Source: Candidatus Methylomirabilis sp. (lineage in GTDB: Bacteria > Muiribacteriota > Ozemobacteria > Ozemobacterales > Ozemobacteraceae). Taken from it: 64,000 nt of DNA. The DNA lies in contig DYKG01000013.1 in the NCBI GenBank assembly GCA_020722725.1, positions 1 through 64,000 of the forward strand, written 5' to 3'. Positions within the stretch are counted from its first letter, which is position 1. Each line of letters opens with the position of its first letter. Position numbers and translations under genes: made by a program. Below are positions 1,356 through 59,023 of this stretch, one piece after another. Below the pieces are notes generated by a model. That model saw only the letters and a list, made by a program, of their open reading frames with translations. It had not been told where the DNA came from and did not search any database.

Positions 1356-1578
1356 GATCAAACCTCCAAAATAGAGCCGAAGTGAAATTTCATGATATCA
1401 GAAATAAATAAACGAAGCAAGCCAAAATTTTCTGAAAAGACTTTTGAATTTGCAAAACCCCCACCAAAAAAGCCTGTTTATCACTTGGAAAAAATTCATT
1501 GCTTTAGCTTATAAATGTACACTTTGATGAACCGAGATATATACTGAACTCACATTTTTTTCGCAAGGAAGGATTTTT

Positions 1579-3003
1579 ATGATTCAAAAAATCAGCAAAG
1601 GACCAGTTCCTGCTGAAGGTTTTCTTTTTTTCCCGGTTAAGGGCAAAAAACCTGCCTCATTCCCTGACTGGGTTCCCACCATTGTCTCCGAAAACTGGGA
1701 AGAAGATTTCGTTTCATCGTGGCGTCTCAACAACGAATATCTGTTCAAGGTACCCGCCCTCGAAATGGATCACGCGTTCAGACGCAACTGCAAGAACTGG
1801 CTGGGTAAGGCACTCAACTTTTTTAAACAGCGCGGTGTTAAAAGTTTTAATCTCTGGATGCCCCAGCTTCCCGAAGAAGATTTGAAAATTGCCATTCTCG
1901 ATTTTCTCGAAGTTCCCCTCTACATGGAATACGACATCGGCTATTTCAAAACCGTAAAGCCTGAAATCACCCGAATTGAATTCGTAAACTATGTTTTCAA
2001 TTCCCATACTCACATCGAAAAGTTTGCCAGGCTGGTCAACGACGGCAAAATCATCAATGAATCGGTCAACGAAACCAGACGCCTGGTCGACATGCCCGCC
2101 AATCTGCTCGGCCCCCAGGAACTGTTTAATGAAGCTGCTCAACTTCGCCAATATGGCGCCAGGGTTGAAATGGTTGCCCCCGAAAAGGTCGCAAAAATGG
2201 GCGGTTTGAATGCCGTTGGTGCCGGTAGCGTCAATAAACCGGTTCTATTCGAAATCGAGCTGAACCCCTCTGATGAACCGCCGATTCTGCTCATTGGAAA
2301 AGGCATAACCTTTGACTCGGGCGGCCTGTGTCTCAAACCCCGCGAAAGTCTGCCCGAAGAAAAAACTGACATGGCCGGAGCTGCTGCGGTAATCGGCATC
2401 ATTCGCTCGCTTGCCGAGATGGGTTATAAGAAACGCATCGTTGCCATCATTCCCGCCGCTGAAAATATGCCAAATGGCAATGCTTACCGGCCTGGCGACA
2501 TCATTACCATGTATGACGGCACAACCGTTGAAATTCTCAATACCGATGCCGAAGGCCGTCTGATTCTTTCTGACGCCCTCTGCTATGCCCGTGAATACAA
2601 TCCCAGACTGGTGATCGATCTGGCAACCCTGACCGGAAACATCATGCAGGCGCTCAGCACCAGATATACCGGCCTGTTCTGTAACGACAAAGATCTTGAA
2701 CGCCGCCTGATGAAAGCCGCCGAAGACGGTGGCGAGCAGGTCTGGCCCATGCCGCTGCACCCCGATTTCAGCGATGAAGTCAAAGGTCGGTTCGCTGACC
2801 TGAGAAACGCCGCAATTTCTGGAAAAGAAGCCGGTGCCTGCACTGCCGCAGCTTTTTTGAGCTATTTCGTCCGCTGGCCCTGGGCCCATCTCGATATTGC
2901 CGGGTCAGCCATCGAAAAGAAAGGCCGCTCTTACCGCCCGGTCGGGTACGCCAGCGGCGTCGGCGTAAAACTGGTGGTCAACACCATTCGCGACTTGGAC
3001 TGA
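1579..3003 (+). CDS. pepA: leucyl aminopeptidase, M17 family
   Basis: This 474-residue cytosolic metallopeptidase removes N-terminal residues from peptides using two divalent metals. The C-terminal catalytic domain carries the family signatures: GKGITFDSGG with metal/catalytic Lys241 and Asp246, DMAGAAAV, and NTDAEGRL starting at Asn321, the diagnostic M17 motif with the metal-ligand Asp/Glu and catalytic Arg. The N-terminal 150 residues form the divergent regulatory domain typical of the family. The length is close to the usual 480-500. The SD AAGGA lies 7-8 nt before the ATG. It is monocistronic, with a hairpin-forming intergenic repeat after the stop. M17 members can double as DNA-binding proteins, but nothing here addresses that. 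Confidence 0.93.
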   Translation: MIQKISKGPVPAEGFLFFPVKGKKPASFPDWVPTIVSENWEEDFVSSWRLNNEYLFKVPALEMDHAFRRNCKNWLGKALNFFKQRGVKSFNLWMPQLPEEDLKIAILDFLEVPLYMEYDIGYFKTVKPEITRIEFVNYVFNSHTHIEKFARLVNDGKIINESVNETRRLVDMPANLLGPQELFNEAAQLRQYGARVEMVAPEKVAKMGGLNAVGAGSVNKPVLFEIELNPSDEPPILLIGKGITFDSGGLCLKPRESLPEEKTDMAGAAAVIGIIRSLAEMGYKKRIVAIIPAAENMPNGNAYRPGDIITMYDGTTVEILNTDAEGRLILSDALCYAREYNPRLVIDLATLTGNIMQALSTRYTGLFCNDKDLERRLMKAAEDGGEQVWPMPLHPDFSDEVKGRFADLRNAAISGKEAGACTAAAFLSYFVRWPWAHLDIAGSAIEKKGRSYRPVGYASGVGVKLVVNTIRDLD

Positions 3004-3056: not shown

Positions 3057-3172
3057 AGAACTCTTCGGTGAGCTATTATAAACCTTTATTTGTTGCCTGA
3101 AGCGCGGAACATTATCGCGTTAAATCAAATTTAATCAACGAATAAAATGTGATTGTATTAGTTAAGAAAATT

Positions 3173-3212
3173 GAAAACACCTCCGATACCAGTTGCGTTC
3201 GGAGGTGTTTTC
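3173..3212 (+). promoter_or_regulatory. perfect 14-bp hairpin sequestering the SD of the downstream lipoprotein gene
   Basis: The left arm GAAAACACCTCCGA (3173-3186) and right arm TCGGAGGTGTTTTC (3199-3212) are exactly complementary around a 12-nt loop. The right arm holds the whole SD sequence GGAGGTG and ends one base before the ATG at 3213. No U tract follows, so it is not an intrinsic terminator. In mRNA this stem would hide the ribosome-binding site, suggesting conditional translation by a protein, small RNA, temperature or coupled transcription. The mechanism is inferred, while the base pairing is read directly. Confidence 0.75.
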
Positions 3213-5000
3213 ATGAAAAACGGCAGGCTTTTCAAAAGTTTTGTTTATACAATGATTCTTGTCTGGGTCGGCATGACGATTGCCGGCTGTACTCAGGCCA
3301 ATTCTCTGAGCAGCAACCCGGCTGCCGCTGATACCAATCCTGAATCGGTTCTGAATACCGTTGATAAGACCACTAAAGGTGAAAACTACGCACCGGTTGT
3401 AAATCTTCTTGCCGAAAAAACTGTGGTCGGACCGGAAAATGAAGTGATTATCAGAGCCGAAACCCTCGACCCCGAAGGCTCGCAGCTCGAAATTCTCTGG
3501 AATGCCGATTCGGGGGATTTGATTAACACCGACAACGATCGGGTGGTCTGGAGAGCCCCAAAAATCGGCACTTCTGCAACCATATCCTGCAAAGCTACTG
3601 ACCCCGAAGGGGCTTTCACCTCAGCTGAAGTGAAAATAGAGGTTCTTGCCGACGGCAGTTATCGCCTGGTGGTAATGGCAGATCGTTCTTCTCTGTTGAC
3701 CAGCCGCTCATATTCAGGATCAAGCGATCTCTATGTTCCCGTCTCCGGTGCCAGAGTCGAATTGCCTGTGCTCGGCCAGATCGGGGTAACCGGTTCTGAC
3801 GGTTCGGTAGAATTCACCATTGATCAGTCGGTGGTCGTAGCTACCAGCGCGGTTGTCATGGTTAAATATCTCGACTGGGAACTCAGTTACAATGCGACTC
3901 TCAAACCCGCCGCCGGATCAGGCGCCGTTCTTGATAGTCTGAGCTTTGCTCCCGGGTTCGATGGCGTATCGGTGGCGATTGGTCGGGGCGACTCATTCAA
4001 TCTGAAACGCGGTGCTATTGAAGTCATGGCCGTCGAAAATTCATACGGAACTACCCGGCCGATTGCCGAAGTAACCGTTGACGCCGGCTTTGCCCAGTCG
4101 ATGTCGGCAGCGGGAACCGGAATTGCCCTGGTTAGCTCTCTTTCCTCGTCAGATGTTAATCTTCGACTCAGCAAAAATGGCTATCAGACCATCGATGGCT
4201 ACAAAATACCCGTTTCTCTCGACGGCCTTACCATCGTGCGTGCCCGACTGGAAAAATCCGGCAGTATTCCCGATACTGAGGCGATTATCTCCTATACCAG
4301 ACCTTTCAATTATCAGAAAGCCTTCCCCGTTTCAGGACCTTTCGAAATTGGCTTTGGACAGGCAATGGAAAAAGAATCTTTTTTCGACGACATCAGCCTG
4401 ATGATTCAAAACAAAGAAACCGGGGCAACCATGGCGATGACCGGGCCGGATATCGGTCGAAACTTCAGAGTCGCCTGGATCGGCAGCACAATTGTTCAGC
4501 TTTACCCGGTTCAACCGCTTAAAGGCCTTACCAGATACAGCCTGTTGATCAGCCGATTGAACGCCAGAGCCGCTGACGGCAGAGTGCTTAAAAACTATAA
4601 CGGCATGTATGGCGAATTTACTACCGATGCCGATGTTTCGCCGAAGATTCTTTCGACTTCGCCGGTTAATGGCGCAGTTTCAGTAGGCCGAACCGGGCCA
4701 TTCGTCATCAGATTCGACCGCAGCATGCAGAAAGATAGTCTTTATGACGATCTTGAAATTGAAATTACCAATTTAAAAAGCAACGCACAGGTTATCGTTG
4801 ATGGTGTCTCGATTAAAAGCTACTTCTCGGTGACCTGGAAAGAAGCCGATACGGTTCTTGAACTCGTGCCATTCCGCATGTTGGCTGCAGAAAATCCATA
4901 TCTGATAAGGCTCAATAGCTGCGGTCTGGTATCGGTCTCAGGAAAAAAAGCCGAAGGCTTCGAAAATCTCTGGGGCCAGTTCACCACCGGAAAACTCTAG
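3213..5000 (+). CDS. lipoprotein with Ig/PKD-like and Big_5-like domains
   Basis: The 595-residue protein starts with a lipoprotein signal peptide (hydrophobic stretch ending in the lipobox IAGC, Cys near residue 26), so it should be lipid-anchored in the envelope. Domains in order are an Ig/PKD-like module beginning APVVNLLAEKTVV (about residues 55-145, with DPEG motifs), a carboxypeptidase-regulatory-like module (PVSGARVELP, about 170-240), a second region of that kind, and two C-terminal Big_5-type modules (about 370-475 and 480-590). Both Big_5-type modules carry a FGQAM or FDRSM motif and end in GxFTT. No catalytic motif was seen, so a surface structural or adhesive role is likely. The ATG at 3213 was chosen for the GGAGGTG just upstream, which lies in a strong hairpin. 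Confidence 0.75.
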   Translation: MKNGRLFKSFVYTMILVWVGMTIAGCTQANSLSSNPAAADTNPESVLNTVDKTTKGENYAPVVNLLAEKTVVGPENEVIIRAETLDPEGSQLEILWNADSGDLINTDNDRVVWRAPKIGTSATISCKATDPEGAFTSAEVKIEVLADGSYRLVVMADRSSLLTSRSYSGSSDLYVPVSGARVELPVLGQIGVTGSDGSVEFTIDQSVVVATSAVVMVKYLDWELSYNATLKPAAGSGAVLDSLSFAPGFDGVSVAIGRGDSFNLKRGAIEVMAVENSYGTTRPIAEVTVDAGFAQSMSAAGTGIALVSSLSSSDVNLRLSKNGYQTIDGYKIPVSLDGLTIVRARLEKSGSIPDTEAIISYTRPFNYQKAFPVSGPFEIGFGQAMEKESFFDDISLMIQNKETGATMAMTGPDIGRNFRVAWIGSTIVQLYPVQPLKGLTRYSLLISRLNARAADGRVLKNYNGMYGEFTTDADVSPKILSTSPVNGAVSVGRTGPFVIRFDRSMQKDSLYDDLEIEITNLKSNAQVIVDGVSIKSYFSVTWKEADTVLELVPFRMLAAENPYLIRLNSCGLVSVSGKKAEGFENLWGQFTTGKL

Positions 5001-41047: not shown

Positions 41048-44000
41048 TTAATTGCTCTTAAGCCAGTTCGACAAGCCGCTTCTGATAACCTGAATTCTGC
41101 TGTTTTCAGCAATGAACAGATCGTAACCTGAGCTGTAAATGCTTGCCGGCGATTCAAACTGCCCGTTTCCGGTTCCGCTTGCACCAAATTTCATCAACTG
41201 TTGATTGGTTGATGGATCGATCAGTGTAATCTCGCTGGTTGTACCGTCTAGAGTAAATATGTATGTTTTTGCAAAAGCAATGTCAATCGGGTTAGGAGCT
41301 GTGATAGATGTGGGATTTGCCATCCCGCTATTCATCATAACCACACGATTATTGTTTCGGTCAGCCAGAAAAAGCTTGCCAAGCGTGTCGGGAAGAACAT
41401 CGGTGAATCTGACTCTTAGCGAAGTTCCAAAAGCTATGCTGTTTGCTTCAGTTAATGCATTGGCATTATTACCCGTGTCCGAATCAAAAGAGAGAAGTTG
41501 CCCATTACTGTTGGCGGCATACGCAAGTTTCAATGCTGCAACATCATTGTTGAAAGCAATTGATGTTGCATTGCTGAATTGATTAAACCCGCCTGCGTTT
41601 GCTGCAAAAAGCGCGGACCATGAATCCGCTTCTTCAAAGCTCACCATTGCCTGCGAGGCAACGTTCAAGCCAAGAACTGTAACTTGTCCATCGAATACTG
41701 TGCCAGATATTGGCTGGAAGGTATATGAGGCCTGAGCGGAATAATCGGTGAAGTCGGTGCTGAAATCCGCGTTGAATTTGGTTCCCTGGAATTGCAGTTC
41801 TCTTACCCACGGGGTTGTGGTCGTGTTGTGAGTCGTGTAGATGGTGGGTGTTTGACCTACGCCGCTGCCTTCAATGAAAAGTGCTCTTGCTGTCGGAATC
41901 GGGCCTACACCATAGCTGAAGCTGAGGCTTTGCCATAAGTGCAGCCTTTTATAAACGACCACGCTTGTTTGGGTAGCCGGGTAGGATCCATAGAAGGAAT
42001 CACGCAGTTCCGCCATTACTGTTGCGCTTCCAATAGGTATGGAGTGAACCAGAGTTTTTCCGGTTCCATTGAAAACGTAGCCTCCACCGATGTTGGTATA
42101 CCAGCGAATATTATCGGGATTGAAATTTTCGATCGGGCCACCAATTTCAAAGTCGTTTGAGTTCATGGTGAAAGTAAGTTCCAGGTTTGGCTGAGTGGAA
42201 AGAAAAACCGGAATGTCGCCGGGAGCGGTCGCATATTGTGTGCTGCTGATAGTTATAATGCCGGTTGGCAGTGTGTTTACGAAAACCCCGACAGAGGCAA
42301 TACTGGTTACGTTGTAAAGATCGGTTGCATGGCAGAAAATGGTGTGATTGCCCGATGCCAGCGAACTGGTCGAATAGTTCTGCCCGGTACCAATCTGAGC
42401 CGCATCGTCATACCACCGGTAAGTCAGCACATCAGTTGGGTCAATGTCGCTGCCGGTTGAAGAGAAACTTATGGTTTCGCCGGTGTCATAGCGCGTTCCA
42501 GAAGCCGGGGCGGTTATTGTTACCGTTGGAGTGGCATTGACATAAAGAACATGCTGGCTGAAACTGCTTACGCCATAGACATCGGAACCAGTCAGAGTAA
42601 TAACATGCTTTCCCAGCTTGGCTGAATCGGTGAAGGTGTAGGCAAAGCTCGATTCGCCGGTTTTTATTGTTGAAGTGGCATTGTTAAAGTTGTCTTCCCA
42701 TTTCATTGTTCCTGAAGAAATGCTTGAACTGTCCAAACCTGATATGCCAGATCCGGTAAAGTTGAACTGTTCGTTCAATGCAACCACTGCATTGTTGGCT
42801 GGAGCATTAATCGTCATGGTAGGCCGCTGGTTAACGATTACCCGGGTGCTCGAAGATACGCTGCCGCCCTGAGAGTCACTTACAATTAGAGTTATGTCAT
42901 GAATTCCCGCCGTTAGCGTACTGACAACGACCGGGTTGCCCATCGCTATTGTGGTCAGGCCTCTCCGCCACAGATAATGCCCACCATTGAGGCTTTGATT
43001 CGGGTCGTTTGCATTGGCTGAAAATGTTATTGGATCTCCTGAAAGATATACAGTTCCACTTGTTGGGCTGATCGAAGAAATCGTGGGTGAAGTGTTGATA
43101 AACACTTCAATGGTTGCTGCTGACGATTCGGCACCAATCTTGTCTTTTGATTTTAGCGTAACCGTCTGTGTTCCGGCTGGAAGGTCGGTGCGCGAGAAAC
43201 TTGTTCCGGTAAGGGTTGTTCCTCCAGGAAGAGTCCATGTCAGGCTGGCCGCAGGGATGGTAATATCTTCAACATCGGTGCCGATACCGGTAAAATTTAC
43301 GCTTGCTCCAAGCTGGAAAATACTTTTGTTTGCCGGTGCAGTAATCCGGGCAAATGGGTTGGAATTGATTCGGAATTTTACTGAAGCCTGACCGGTTGCA
43401 CCAAGTGAGTCATTTGCCTGAACAGTCACAACGTATGTCGCGGGTTCGGTAACCTGCAGGCTTAATGAAGATCTCTGGTGGCCTATCATGACTGCTGTTT
43501 CGCCTTCTTTTGACTGATACCAGGTAAATGCTGACGGGGCCAAATTGCCTTCTTCTGCATCAGTTGCCGTGGCTGAATAGAAAATAGTAGCCGGCGCACT
43601 GAGCGAATTGTTCGTCGGTGCGGTAATATTCACAACAGGATTTTGATTTGGTGGCGGATTGGGATCGCTGCTTACTGTGAAAGTTGCGACCTTGAGAGCG
43701 GTTCCACCCTTGCCATCGCTGACCAGAACCCTTATTTGAGGGTATGTCGTTCCAGTAACATTTGGGGTTGTCCAGGTGGTGGTAACTTCGTTGGTCGGAT
43801 TGAGTGTGCCCGCGGTTGCAGACCAGGTGTAAGTAAGAGCATCTCCATTGGCATCTGAAGCGTTTGCAGTTAAAACATGCTGGGTGTTAGCTAGAAATGT
43901 TGTCGCATCGCTGTTGATACTCAGAACTACCGGAGCATAGTTGGTTCCACCGCCGTTGCCGCTTCCAATTTTTATTTGAATTTTTGCTGCGGCAGAAAGA

Positions 44001-44908
44001 CCTGATTGATCAGTAACTTTGATGGTAATTGTTGCTGTTGTCTGAACATCTGGTGCGGTAAAAACTGCTGCCAGATTTGAACCCTGAGTGGCAACGGTTC
44101 CGGATGTTGCTGACCAGGTATAGATCAGATTATCACCATCGGGGTCGCTTGCAGTTCCGGTAAGCACAACCTGCTGTCTGGGGGACAGTTCGTAGGTTGT
44201 TGCTTTGAGAGTAGCCACTGGCGGGCGATTTGTCGAAGCTGACGGGGCAAGAGTCTGCTCGATGTAAAGCGGGTTGCGGTCATCGAAGGTTACTGTAACC
44301 ACGGTGTTTTGATAACCGGTTCCGTTGATATTAACGTCTGCCTGAATCCCGGCAGGCATATATGCCATGAAGGTTCCATCGATTCCAGCAATGGTTTCTT
44401 CACCCCAGATTGTAACTTTTGCGCTGGGAATTGGATTACCATTGCTATCTTTTATAATGCCGGAAATTTTGCTGGTTGCTTGAGAAAGAACCATGCTTGA
44501 TGTGAGTTCAACCGTGGGGTTAGCGGCAGATACGGTTACTGCCGGAGATCGTGACTTGTAAATGTTTCCAGAGGCAGATTTAATAAGGGCAACCAAATTG
44601 TGGGTTCCTTGCGGAACCGGCAGAACGAAATTTCCCTGGTCATCTGTTCTAGTGGAATAAGATCGGCGATTCGATTCAAGATATACCTCAATGTTTGCCA
44701 TGCTAGTCGCCGCACGCAAATCAGATTCAGCAAAAAGACTGGCAAGCACTGCATTTGAAGTTACCTTTCCGGTTATCTGGAACGTGCTTCCACTGCCGGT
44801 GGGCAACGGGTCTGATGAAGAACCTCCGCCACAGCCATAAAAAATAATCGTGCCAACCAGGGCACAAATAAGCAACAATAAACTGGTATTGCGGCGATTT
44901 TCTGCCAT
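41048..44908 (-). CDS. giant lipoprotein (1286 aa) with about eight Ig/PKD-like modules
   Basis: The signal peptide has lipobox IIFYGC and a short GGGSSS linker. Residues 40-225 hold two carboxypeptidase-regulatory-like modules (ITGKVTSNAVL...; ISGIIKDSNGNPIPSAKVTIWG). From about 227 to 986 come eight Ig/PKD-like modules, each opening with an Asn-x-x-Pro signature (NRPPVATLK, NYAPVVLSI, NQNPVVNIT, NSNPFARIT, NTSPTISSI, NQRPTMTIN, NATPTVTIT, NTLPTGIIT) and many carrying DxDGD-like turns. The last 300 residues look like an NHL/beta-propeller region (ANSIAFGTSLRV, KLFLADRNNNRVVMMNSG). A near-consensus promoter precedes it. A surface scaffold or adhesin is likely, of the same style as the 12585 gene. 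Confidence 0.8.
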   Translation of the reverse strand: MAENRRNTSLLLLICALVGTIIFYGCGGGSSSDPLPTGSGSTFQITGKVTSNAVLASLFAESDLRAATSMANIEVYLESNRRSYSTRTDDQGNFVLPVPQGTHNLVALIKSASGNIYKSRSPAVTVSAANPTVELTSSMVLSQATSKISGIIKDSNGNPIPSAKVTIWGEETIAGIDGTFMAYMPAGIQADVNINGTGYQNTVVTVTFDDRNPLYIEQTLAPSASTNRPPVATLKATTYELSPRQQVVLTGTASDPDGDNLIYTWSATSGTVATQGSNLAAVFTAPDVQTTATITIKVTDQSGLSAAAKIQIKIGSGNGGGTNYAPVVLSINSDATTFLANTQHVLTANASDANGDALTYTWSATAGTLNPTNEVTTTWTTPNVTGTTYPQIRVLVSDGKGGTALKVATFTVSSDPNPPPNQNPVVNITAPTNNSLSAPATIFYSATATDAEEGNLAPSAFTWYQSKEGETAVMIGHQRSSLSLQVTEPATYVVTVQANDSLGATGQASVKFRINSNPFARITAPANKSIFQLGASVNFTGIGTDVEDITIPAASLTWTLPGGTTLTGTSFSRTDLPAGTQTVTLKSKDKIGAESSAATIEVFINTSPTISSISPTSGTVYLSGDPITFSANANDPNQSLNGGHYLWRRGLTTIAMGNPVVVSTLTAGIHDITLIVSDSQGGSVSSSTRVIVNQRPTMTINAPANNAVVALNEQFNFTGSGISGLDSSSISSGTMKWEDNFNNATSTIKTGESSFAYTFTDSAKLGKHVITLTGSDVYGVSSFSQHVLYVNATPTVTITAPASGTRYDTGETISFSSTGSDIDPTDVLTYRWYDDAAQIGTGQNYSTSSLASGNHTIFCHATDLYNVTSIASVGVFVNTLPTGIITISSTQYATAPGDIPVFLSTQPNLELTFTMNSNDFEIGGPIENFNPDNIRWYTNIGGGYVFNGTGKTLVHSIPIGSATVMAELRDSFYGSYPATQTSVVVYKRLHLWQSLSFSYGVGPIPTARALFIEGSGVGQTPTIYTTHNTTTTPWVRELQFQGTKFNADFSTDFTDYSAQASYTFQPISGTVFDGQVTVLGLNVASQAMVSFEEADSWSALFAANAGGFNQFSNATSIAFNNDVAALKLAYAANSNGQLLSFDSDTGNNANALTEANSIAFGTSLRVRFTDVLPDTLGKLFLADRNNNRVVMMNSGMANPTSITAPNPIDIAFAKTYIFTLDGTTSEITLIDPSTNQQLMKFGASGTGNGQFESPASIYSSGYDLFIAENSRIQVIRSGLSNWLKSN

Positions 44909-48232: not shown

Positions 48233-50266
48233 ATGAAAATTCCGCGGTTTATTTTTTGCGTTTCGATTTTTCTGGCCTTTTTATTTGACAGTTGTTTCGC
48301 TGTATCGTTTGATTTAATGCTCAAACAGGTTGGAGCGCTGCGGAAAACCAAAAAATATTCTGATTTGGCTGCACTGCTGAAAAAAAGTTCAGCATCACCC
48401 GAACTCGAAGACCTGCGGTTGTTTCTGCTGGCTGAAAGCCAGAAATCTACAGGAAACAACGAAGAGGCAAGAAAAAATTACCAGCAGCTGCTGGAAAAAT
48501 TTCCTGAAACGGAAACTGCTTATCAGGCAAGATTGCCCCATTTTCTGCTGCTTCTGGAAATTGCGGACAAAAACTCTGTTTCAAAACTTGAAGTTTTGGC
48601 CAGGGTTCTGCCAACTCAATGGCAACGGGCAACTGCTTTCGAAAAGCTTGCTGCTCTGCCTTTTTTGAATTCGGCAGAAATGTCAGGCTACCTTTATAAT
48701 GCCGTTAAAGAGCATCATTCTGAAAAGCCATTCTACAAAACTATACCCGGTTCACATGATTTGCTGCGCAAACTTCTGAAAAATCCTGAAAATTATTCGC
48801 TGACCGGTGAACAGTGGCTTGAGCTTCTGATCCTGGCCGGCGAAGAAGGGTTGTTGAAAGACCTGCTAAGTCGCAATCCAGACCGGTTTTCCCGAATATT
48901 GTCAGGTTGGCCGGGCATTCTTGAAGTTTTTAAAGCCATCGCAATAGGTCAGAAGAATGGTCAGACTGATGCGATCACTGCTCTTTCCGGACTATTAAAC
49001 AAGCCCGGAATCCATGGGTCGGTCAAAAATTTTGTTTTTCAGCAACGGGCAAATCTTTATTATCAGTCACAGAATTTTGCCGCAGCCATGACAGATTTTA
49101 AAATGGCTCTGCAAAAACCCGATTTTCCGGTTAATCGTCGTGCCTGTCAATACAGATTGATGCGCAGCGCCTTTTCTGCTGGTCGTGATGCCGAAGCTCT
49201 CGAAGTTCTCGGCCATTTAATCAAAGAAGGCGAGCCAGAGCCTCTTTTGCCGATTCAGCTTTACGAGATGGGCCTTGAAAGATACGATGCCGGCAAAAAA
49301 CAGATTGCAACGCTCTATTTCATGGCCCTTGCCAGAAGTTTTCCGGGTCACTATCGCGCCGATGATGCTCTGGGATACGGTATTTTTTCTCTGGGAACCC
49401 GGAGCAATGATGGTAAAACTCTGCTGAAACTGCTTCAGGCAAAATATTCCAACTCATTCTTTCTAACCTGGGTAGCTCCTGAACTTAAAGTTAAACCTGT
49501 TATTTCAGGTAAGGCAAAAGCTCAGGCGCTTTCAGATAAAACCAGACAGCGGGTGGCCGCCTGGAAAAAGCTGTGGAATACGGATTTTGCAAGCTTTTCC
49601 CGCGAAGAAGCCCGAAAGTTGACCGATAAATACCCGGCTCATCTGAGTCTCTATGAGCAAATCATCAAGATTTGCAGGGAAGCAGAAGATTACAATCAAC
49701 TCATCGCCTATGGTGAAAGGCTTGCCCGGCAGTTGCTTGAAACTGGAAAATCCATGTCCGATATGCCGCTGTGGGGTTGGCAGGCTCTTTATCCTGAGGC
49801 ATACTTTAATCTGGTGAAAAACGAGGCTAAGAAAAACTCGATTGATCCTTATTGGGTTCTTTCGATTATGCGCGAAGAAAGTCATTTTAATCCTGAGACC
49901 CTTTCTCGAAGCAACGCTCATGGTCTGATGCAGATTCTGCCCTCTACCGGAAAATGGATAGCCGGAAAATTGGGCATTAAGGGCTTTACTAAAAATCAGC
50001 TCTGGAAGCCGGAAATCAACATCAGGTTCGGCTGCTGGTATTTAAAGTATCTTTATGACCTTTTCAATGCCGAATTGCATCTTGCCTCTGCAGCTTATAA
50101 TGGCGGCCAGGGAAATATTCAGCGAAAAGTTGAAGCTGGCCCTTTCAAAGACCTTGCTGTATTAGAAAGACTCGATCGGGTTCCCTTGCCCGAAACCCGC
50201 GACTATTACAAAAAAGTCATGGGAAGCTACTGGAATTACACCAGGCTGTATTCAGGGCAAAAATAA
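48233..50266 (+). CDS. soluble-type lytic transglycosylase
   Basis: This 677-residue protein has a signal peptide (FIFCVSIFLAFLFDSCFA) and a long superhelical region of TPR/helical repeats (about 30-510), as in Slt70. The C-terminal SLT domain follows: DPYWVLSIMREESHFNPETLSRSNAHGLMQILPSTG with catalytic Glu548 or Glu549, then AAYNGGQGNIQRKV and YYKKVMGSYWNYTRLY. It cleaves peptidoglycan glycan strands to 1,6-anhydro products in the periplasm, for turnover or for inserting envelope machines. GAGGTG lies 7 nt before the ATG. A perfect 17-bp hairpin begins at the stop codon. Cysteine residues near the signal cleavage site do not form a clear lipobox. Confidence 0.9.
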   Translation: MKIPRFIFCVSIFLAFLFDSCFAVSFDLMLKQVGALRKTKKYSDLAALLKKSSASPELEDLRLFLLAESQKSTGNNEEARKNYQQLLEKFPETETAYQARLPHFLLLLEIADKNSVSKLEVLARVLPTQWQRATAFEKLAALPFLNSAEMSGYLYNAVKEHHSEKPFYKTIPGSHDLLRKLLKNPENYSLTGEQWLELLILAGEEGLLKDLLSRNPDRFSRILSGWPGILEVFKAIAIGQKNGQTDAITALSGLLNKPGIHGSVKNFVFQQRANLYYQSQNFAAAMTDFKMALQKPDFPVNRRACQYRLMRSAFSAGRDAEALEVLGHLIKEGEPEPLLPIQLYEMGLERYDAGKKQIATLYFMALARSFPGHYRADDALGYGIFSLGTRSNDGKTLLKLLQAKYSNSFFLTWVAPELKVKPVISGKAKAQALSDKTRQRVAAWKKLWNTDFASFSREEARKLTDKYPAHLSLYEQIIKICREAEDYNQLIAYGERLARQLLETGKSMSDMPLWGWQALYPEAYFNLVKNEAKKNSIDPYWVLSIMREESHFNPETLSRSNAHGLMQILPSTGKWIAGKLGIKGFTKNQLWKPEINIRFGCWYLKYLYDLFNAELHLASAAYNGGQGNIQRKVEAGPFKDLAVLERLDRVPLPETRDYYKKVMGSYWNYTRLYSGQK

Positions 50267-50303
50267 ATCAGAAGCCGGGACAGCCTCTGTCCCGGCTTCT
50301 GAT
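50267..50303 (+). terminator. perfect 17-bp hairpin after the lytic transglycosylase gene
   Basis: ATCAGAAGCCGGGACAG (50267-50283) pairs completely with CTGTCCCGGCTTCTGAT (50287-50303) around a 3-nt loop. No U tract follows, so it may terminate poorly, protect the 3' end, or belong to the intergenic palindrome group. Confidence 0.6.
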
Positions 50304-50336
50304 TCGTATCACAGAAAGCCTGGTTCAAAATTTTAT

Positions 50337-58951: not shown

Positions 58952-59023
58952 ATAAAAAAAACTTAATGAATTGTTAGTATGAGCCGATAGATAATGCAGC
59001 CTAAACTAACTTCATGGGATTAT

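Follow-up and report, generated by a model that had tools for sequence, protein, structure and literature searches.

The inverted repeat at positions 3172–3213 of the window (the whole 64,000-nucleotide stretch of DNA analyzed here) appears to be an anti-read-through, or insulator, leader for a lipoprotein gene, with a sigma-28 (FliA) promoter embedded in it. We assign this reading, which is drawn from sequence evidence, a probability of about 0.6. Under this model, whether an RNA yields lipoprotein would be decided by the promoter that it came from.

Gene Context of the Repeat

The lipoprotein gene (3213–5000, + strand) encodes a protein of 595 amino acids with the lipobox IAGC and a Big_5 Ig-like domain (Pfam PF13205, E = 3.5e-10), and orthologues are present in the family. 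Its upstream neighbor on the same strand (1579–3003, +) encodes a pepA-like leucyl aminopeptidase (Peptidase_M17; Pfam PF00883, E = 7e-105). A consensus scan placed a sigma-70-like promoter, TGTACA-18-TATACT (9/12 matches), before pepA at 1516–1545 (+), and this candidate promoter is the likely source of read-through RNA. Neither an intrinsic terminator between pepA and the hairpin nor a sigma-70-like promoter on the + strand of that interval was found by scanning. The genomic context permits a longer upstream RNA that crosses the hairpin.

Elsewhere in the window, a segment on the − strand (43967–44284), which is part of a 1294-amino-acid open frame, exhibits 31% identity to residues 39–144 of the lipoprotein. 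The likeness suggests a shared domain that Pfam does not name in the lipoprotein.

Hairpin over the Ribosome-Binding Site

The two 14-bp arms described in an earlier note on this DNA, GAAAACACCTCCGA (3173–3186) and TCGGAGGTGTTTTC (3199–3212), are exact complements. The repeat extends one position further on each side, which gives a left arm TGAAAACACCTCCGA (3172–3186, +) and a right arm TCGGAGGTGTTTTCA (3199–3213, +) with 15 of 15 pairs complementary around a 12-nt loop. The right arm therefore takes in the A of the AUG (3213–3215) along with the Shine–Dalgarno (SD) sequence GGAGGTG (3201–3207, +), which lies five bases 5' of the ATG. The fold energy calculation proposed in the earlier note, run here on 3140–3260, gave −33 kcal/mol (z = −4.0), and none of 200 shuffled sequences was equally stable. 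The SD was predicted to be fully paired in RNA with both arms (unpaired probability, 0.000), so that its burial in the hairpin is borne out for any such RNA; the predicted unpaired probability was about 0.5 in RNA started at 3190–3200.

The earlier note also held that no other gene in the window shows such a structure. This claim was upheld in a larger sample of 524 kb, made up of the 64-kb window and 23 further stretches of 20 kb each from this genome. Of its 268 SD-bearing ORF starts, none but that of the lipoprotein had its SD covered by a perfect hairpin of 8 bp or longer. The duplex energy of its left and right arms, −25.5 kcal/mol, ranked first of the 268 (mean, −6.9; sd, 3.3), 5.6 sd below the mean. 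Perfect hairpins with arms of at least 12 bp numbered 22 in the 524-kb sample, this one included; many were terminator-like, and none of the others lay on a ribosome site. A separate hairpin (50266–50304), with 18 perfect base pairs and a loop of 3 nt, is located at the stop of the ORF 48233–50266; it has no T run directly after it and is a candidate 3'-end structure.

Probable Sigma-28 Promoter in the Left Arm

The left arm is overlapped by an element, TTAA-N16-TCCGATA, that is very probably a sigma-28 promoter, as judged from its sequence and conservation. Its −35 element TTAA lies at 3162–3165 (+), and its −10 octamer TCCGATAC, which overlaps the left arm, lies at 3182–3189 (+). The sigma-28 (FliA) consensus is TAAAGTTT-n11-GCCGATAA (PMC2859248), and the −35 and −10 cores of the element match TAAAGTTT and GCCGATAA. 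The spacing is one base longer than in the E. coli consensus; the promoters of this gene and its orthologues also differ in that the −10 octamer may begin with T and in lying only 7–50 nt from the ATG. In E. coli aer, the mapped transcription start is 6 bp past the octamer (PMC2859248). By analogy, transcription is predicted to start at 3195 (+), 6 nt past the octamer and within the loop.

A whole-genome search yielded 20 orthologues: 19 genomes of the family have a match that spans most of the protein, and one more match is truncated at the end of a contig. All of them, representing ten genera, have (G/T)CCGATA at 7–50 nt 5' of the ATG. At a fixed spacing from it, every one of the 20 also has the −35 letters T (−20) and A (−18), although these letters played no part in finding the sites. 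The shared motif is thus T-n-A-n-N16-(G/T)CCGATA, close to the ATG. In two orthologues of genus g6 (L017 and L018), the octamer is only 7 nt from the ATG, so the start there must adjoin the ATG, which is consistent with a start about 6 nt past the octamer; almost leaderless lipoprotein mRNAs are predicted for these two species.

The genome encodes FliA (FliA_WhiG, 288.6 bits, above the curated cut-off) beside genes that resemble cheC and cheD on reading of their translations. FlgM is also present, and the same sigma-28 motif occurs 5' of flgM and flgK. Across the genome, TAAA-N14..17-KCCGATA followed by GGAG was found 11 times versus 0 for the reversed control, and the TTAA-N16 version 8 times versus 0, with the window site among the 8. 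Six flagellin loci of this genome were examined and showed no clear copy of the motif; a flagellin of a relative has one. Several large flagellin-like genes are clustered on one contig of the genome (G000 contig C64, 1949–18673), where one flagellin match is broken by three stops. The window contains a second sigma-28-like promoter, TTAA-N16-GCCGATAG (58963–58990, +), just 5' of an ORF of 282 or 292 amino acids whose product resembles a secreted polysaccharide-export-type protein.

Model of an Insulator Leader

RNA started by sigma-28 near 3195 would lack the left arm and leave the SD available, and the lipoprotein would be made when FliA is active. RNA entering from pepA and the pepA promoter would carry both arms and form the 15-bp hairpin; with the SD and the first base of the AUG thus paired, it would not be translated. 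We infer where transcription starts, that read-through takes place and that translation is blocked. A promoter in the left arm and non-random arms can be reconciled if the hairpin acts on RNA that enters from upstream.

An upstream same-strand gene ends 12–23 nt before the promoter in g2, in two species of g5 and in the sister species. A link between stronger complementarity and a same-strand gene close upstream is suggestive only (P = 0.06), and in some g3 and g4 species the complementarity is present though the neighboring gene, rpmB, is divergent; these two points are the weakest of the insulator model. One g11 orthologue without an SD hairpin has, by eye, a long terminator-like hairpin just 5' of the promoter. 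A broader generalization, which we regard as speculative and rather unlikely, is that, within this Riflebacteria family, hairpins that hide an SD and have a sigma-28 promoter in their 5' strand recur with re-evolved letters and registers. The starting sigma factor would then license translation of the surface lipoprotein, and other FliA targets might be controlled in the same way.

Complementarity of the Arms in Related Genomes

In a spacer-shuffle test, only the 20-nt promoter spacer was shuffled, with the −10 element and the SD kept, and pairing with the SD region was scored. The p value was 0.0005 in this genome and 0.002 in the sister species. Genus g5 gave values of 0.002, 0.0025 and 0.078, and g3 gave 0.032; of the two g7 species one had 0.030, and of the four g4 species one had 0.011. 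With this genome and the two near-leaderless g6 species left out, the combined P was 2.7e-8, and at the genus level P was about 4e-4 with g1 (this genus) and g6 left out. The orthologues' own arms also paired better than arms swapped between genera (P = 5e-5, a value inflated by GC content). The arms of g5, GGCGAC-TT-CCTCCG / CGGAGG-T-GTCGCC, have other letters and another register, and those of g3, CGACTTCCGAT / ATCGGAGGTCG, likewise differ from those of this genome in both respects. Taken together, these comparisons of sequence indicate that the complementarity is non-random in several genera and that the arms are not a product of chance.

The orthologues gave a divided answer to the earlier expectation that the complementary arm would be kept: the sister species retains 12 bp of the arms, whereas among the other genera several have a left arm that is complementary but different, and several have none. 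Some orthologues, the sister species among them, are predicted to have a paired SD even in the RNA started by sigma-28.

SD pairing was also considered as a general trait of sigma-28 genes and was set aside; 26 other sigma-28-like promoters showed a weak excess (Fisher P = 0.005) that came mainly from four in this genome. Another sigma-28-like gene of the same genome, which encodes an SLH-domain protein (L031; G000 contig C2, 22683 on), is a possible second case: its −10 region and the bases at and after its SD match perfectly over 8 bp, AATCTGCC / GGCAGATT (spacer-shuffle p = 0.015).

Alternative Explanations

The complementarity might be a by-product of two signals that match anyway, the −10 element (CCGA) and the SD context (TCGG), with the remainder due to chance or recent duplication. 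Core CCG:CGG pairs are indeed fixed by the promoter and SD constraints, a covariation count over fixed columns of a MAFFT alignment showed no excess over shuffles, and a convincing long hairpin is missing in about half of the orthologues. Because the fixed-register count was not significant and RNAalifold keeps only three pairs, we make no claim of classical covariation. Nevertheless, the stem at this locus runs 8–10 bp past the core, and the shuffles that hold the −10 element and the SD fixed give the low P values reported above for the other orthologues and at the genus level, so we consider a by-product unlikely. A somewhat less probable explanation is that the hairpin serves mainly as an intrinsic, possibly two-way, terminator of pepA and that its overlap with the promoter and SD reflects compactness. 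Its flanks are rich in A and in T, as are those of other long hairpins in the genome, no other terminator was found between pepA and the lipoprotein gene, and pepA of the sister species ends 18 nt 5' of the −35 element. The terminator scan, whose loop limit of 8 excludes a 12-nt loop, did not call it. However, the stem is followed by only four T and then CATG, which is not a strong U-tract, and the T runs of other terminators in this genome are longer. An additional terminator role is possible in this genus, given the flanks, but it does not explain the hairpins of g5, g3 and g7 because no T run follows the stem there.

The earlier note had proposed that the hairpin switches translation in response to temperature, a protein, a trans-acting RNA or the movement of an upstream ribosome, which implies that a long leader of the gene's own carries it. 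The SD would be wholly hidden in any RNA with both arms, and this part of the proposal stands. The part that treats the hairpin as belonging to the gene's own mRNA is not supported, since with the predicted start in the loop (around 3195) the sigma-28 mRNA would lack the left arm; the earlier note had itself named a start inside or after the left arm as evidence against its view. An on/off switch does not follow from the hairpin because the left arm very probably holds part of a promoter, one that is conserved across the orthologues, and the proposed modes of switching are left unsupported. The hairpin was predicted to stay closed even at 70 °C (SD unpaired probability, 0.002), which disfavors an RNA thermometer, and no Rfam family was found in the window, which disfavors a known type of leader. 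A protein operator is unlikely because the letters of the repeat differ between genera while the complementarity recurs. An in-frame TTG at 3171 was rejected as an upstream start: it has no SD before it and is not conserved in the sister species, where an in-frame stop is met before any upstream start. Given also that no sigma-70-like promoter on the + strand was found between pepA and the hairpin, a regulated leader of the gene's own is highly improbable.

Comparison with Known Systems

If the insulator reading is true, a surface lipoprotein of an uncultured phylum joins the flagellar (FliA) regulon. The locus also illustrates that a hairpin covering the SD need not be a riboregulator when a promoter hides in its 5' arm.

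The arrangement has precedents. In T4, the leaders of gene e (lysozyme) and I-TevI form a hairpin that hides the SD, and its 5' strand contains a late promoter (PMC3014915, PMC2988022). As in those leaders, the hairpin here would hide the SD in the longer RNA started upstream, and the 5' strand holds an alternative-sigma promoter that would give an RNA without the left arm, which in T4 is translated. The T4 cases differ in that they are from a phage, use a late promoter (gp55) and were proven experimentally, whereas the present locus has a bacterial sigma-28 promoter predicted from sequence. In B. subtilis, the sigG leader has a large hairpin of 20 or more pairs that is proposed to keep read-through RNA from spoIIG from being translated; RNA started at the sigG promoter is unable to form it (PMC5942855). 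That leader resembles the present one in belonging to a cellular gene with an alternative-sigma promoter; it differs in depending on sporulation sigma factors (sigma-F/G) instead of FliA, and its product and sequence are unrelated. A limited search of openly licensed papers found no sigma-28 example of a promoter-in-hairpin block.

At the locus described here, the hairpin covers the SD and the first base of the start codon in a long RNA, and the promoter overlaps the 5' strand in such a way that its own RNA should be incapable of forming the hairpin, as judged from sequence and consensus. By this anatomy, the locus belongs to the same kind as T4 gene e and sigG. The insulator reading, if true, would add a cellular sigma-28 case to the small set of promoter-in-hairpin insulators, which are best documented in T4 and in sporulation.
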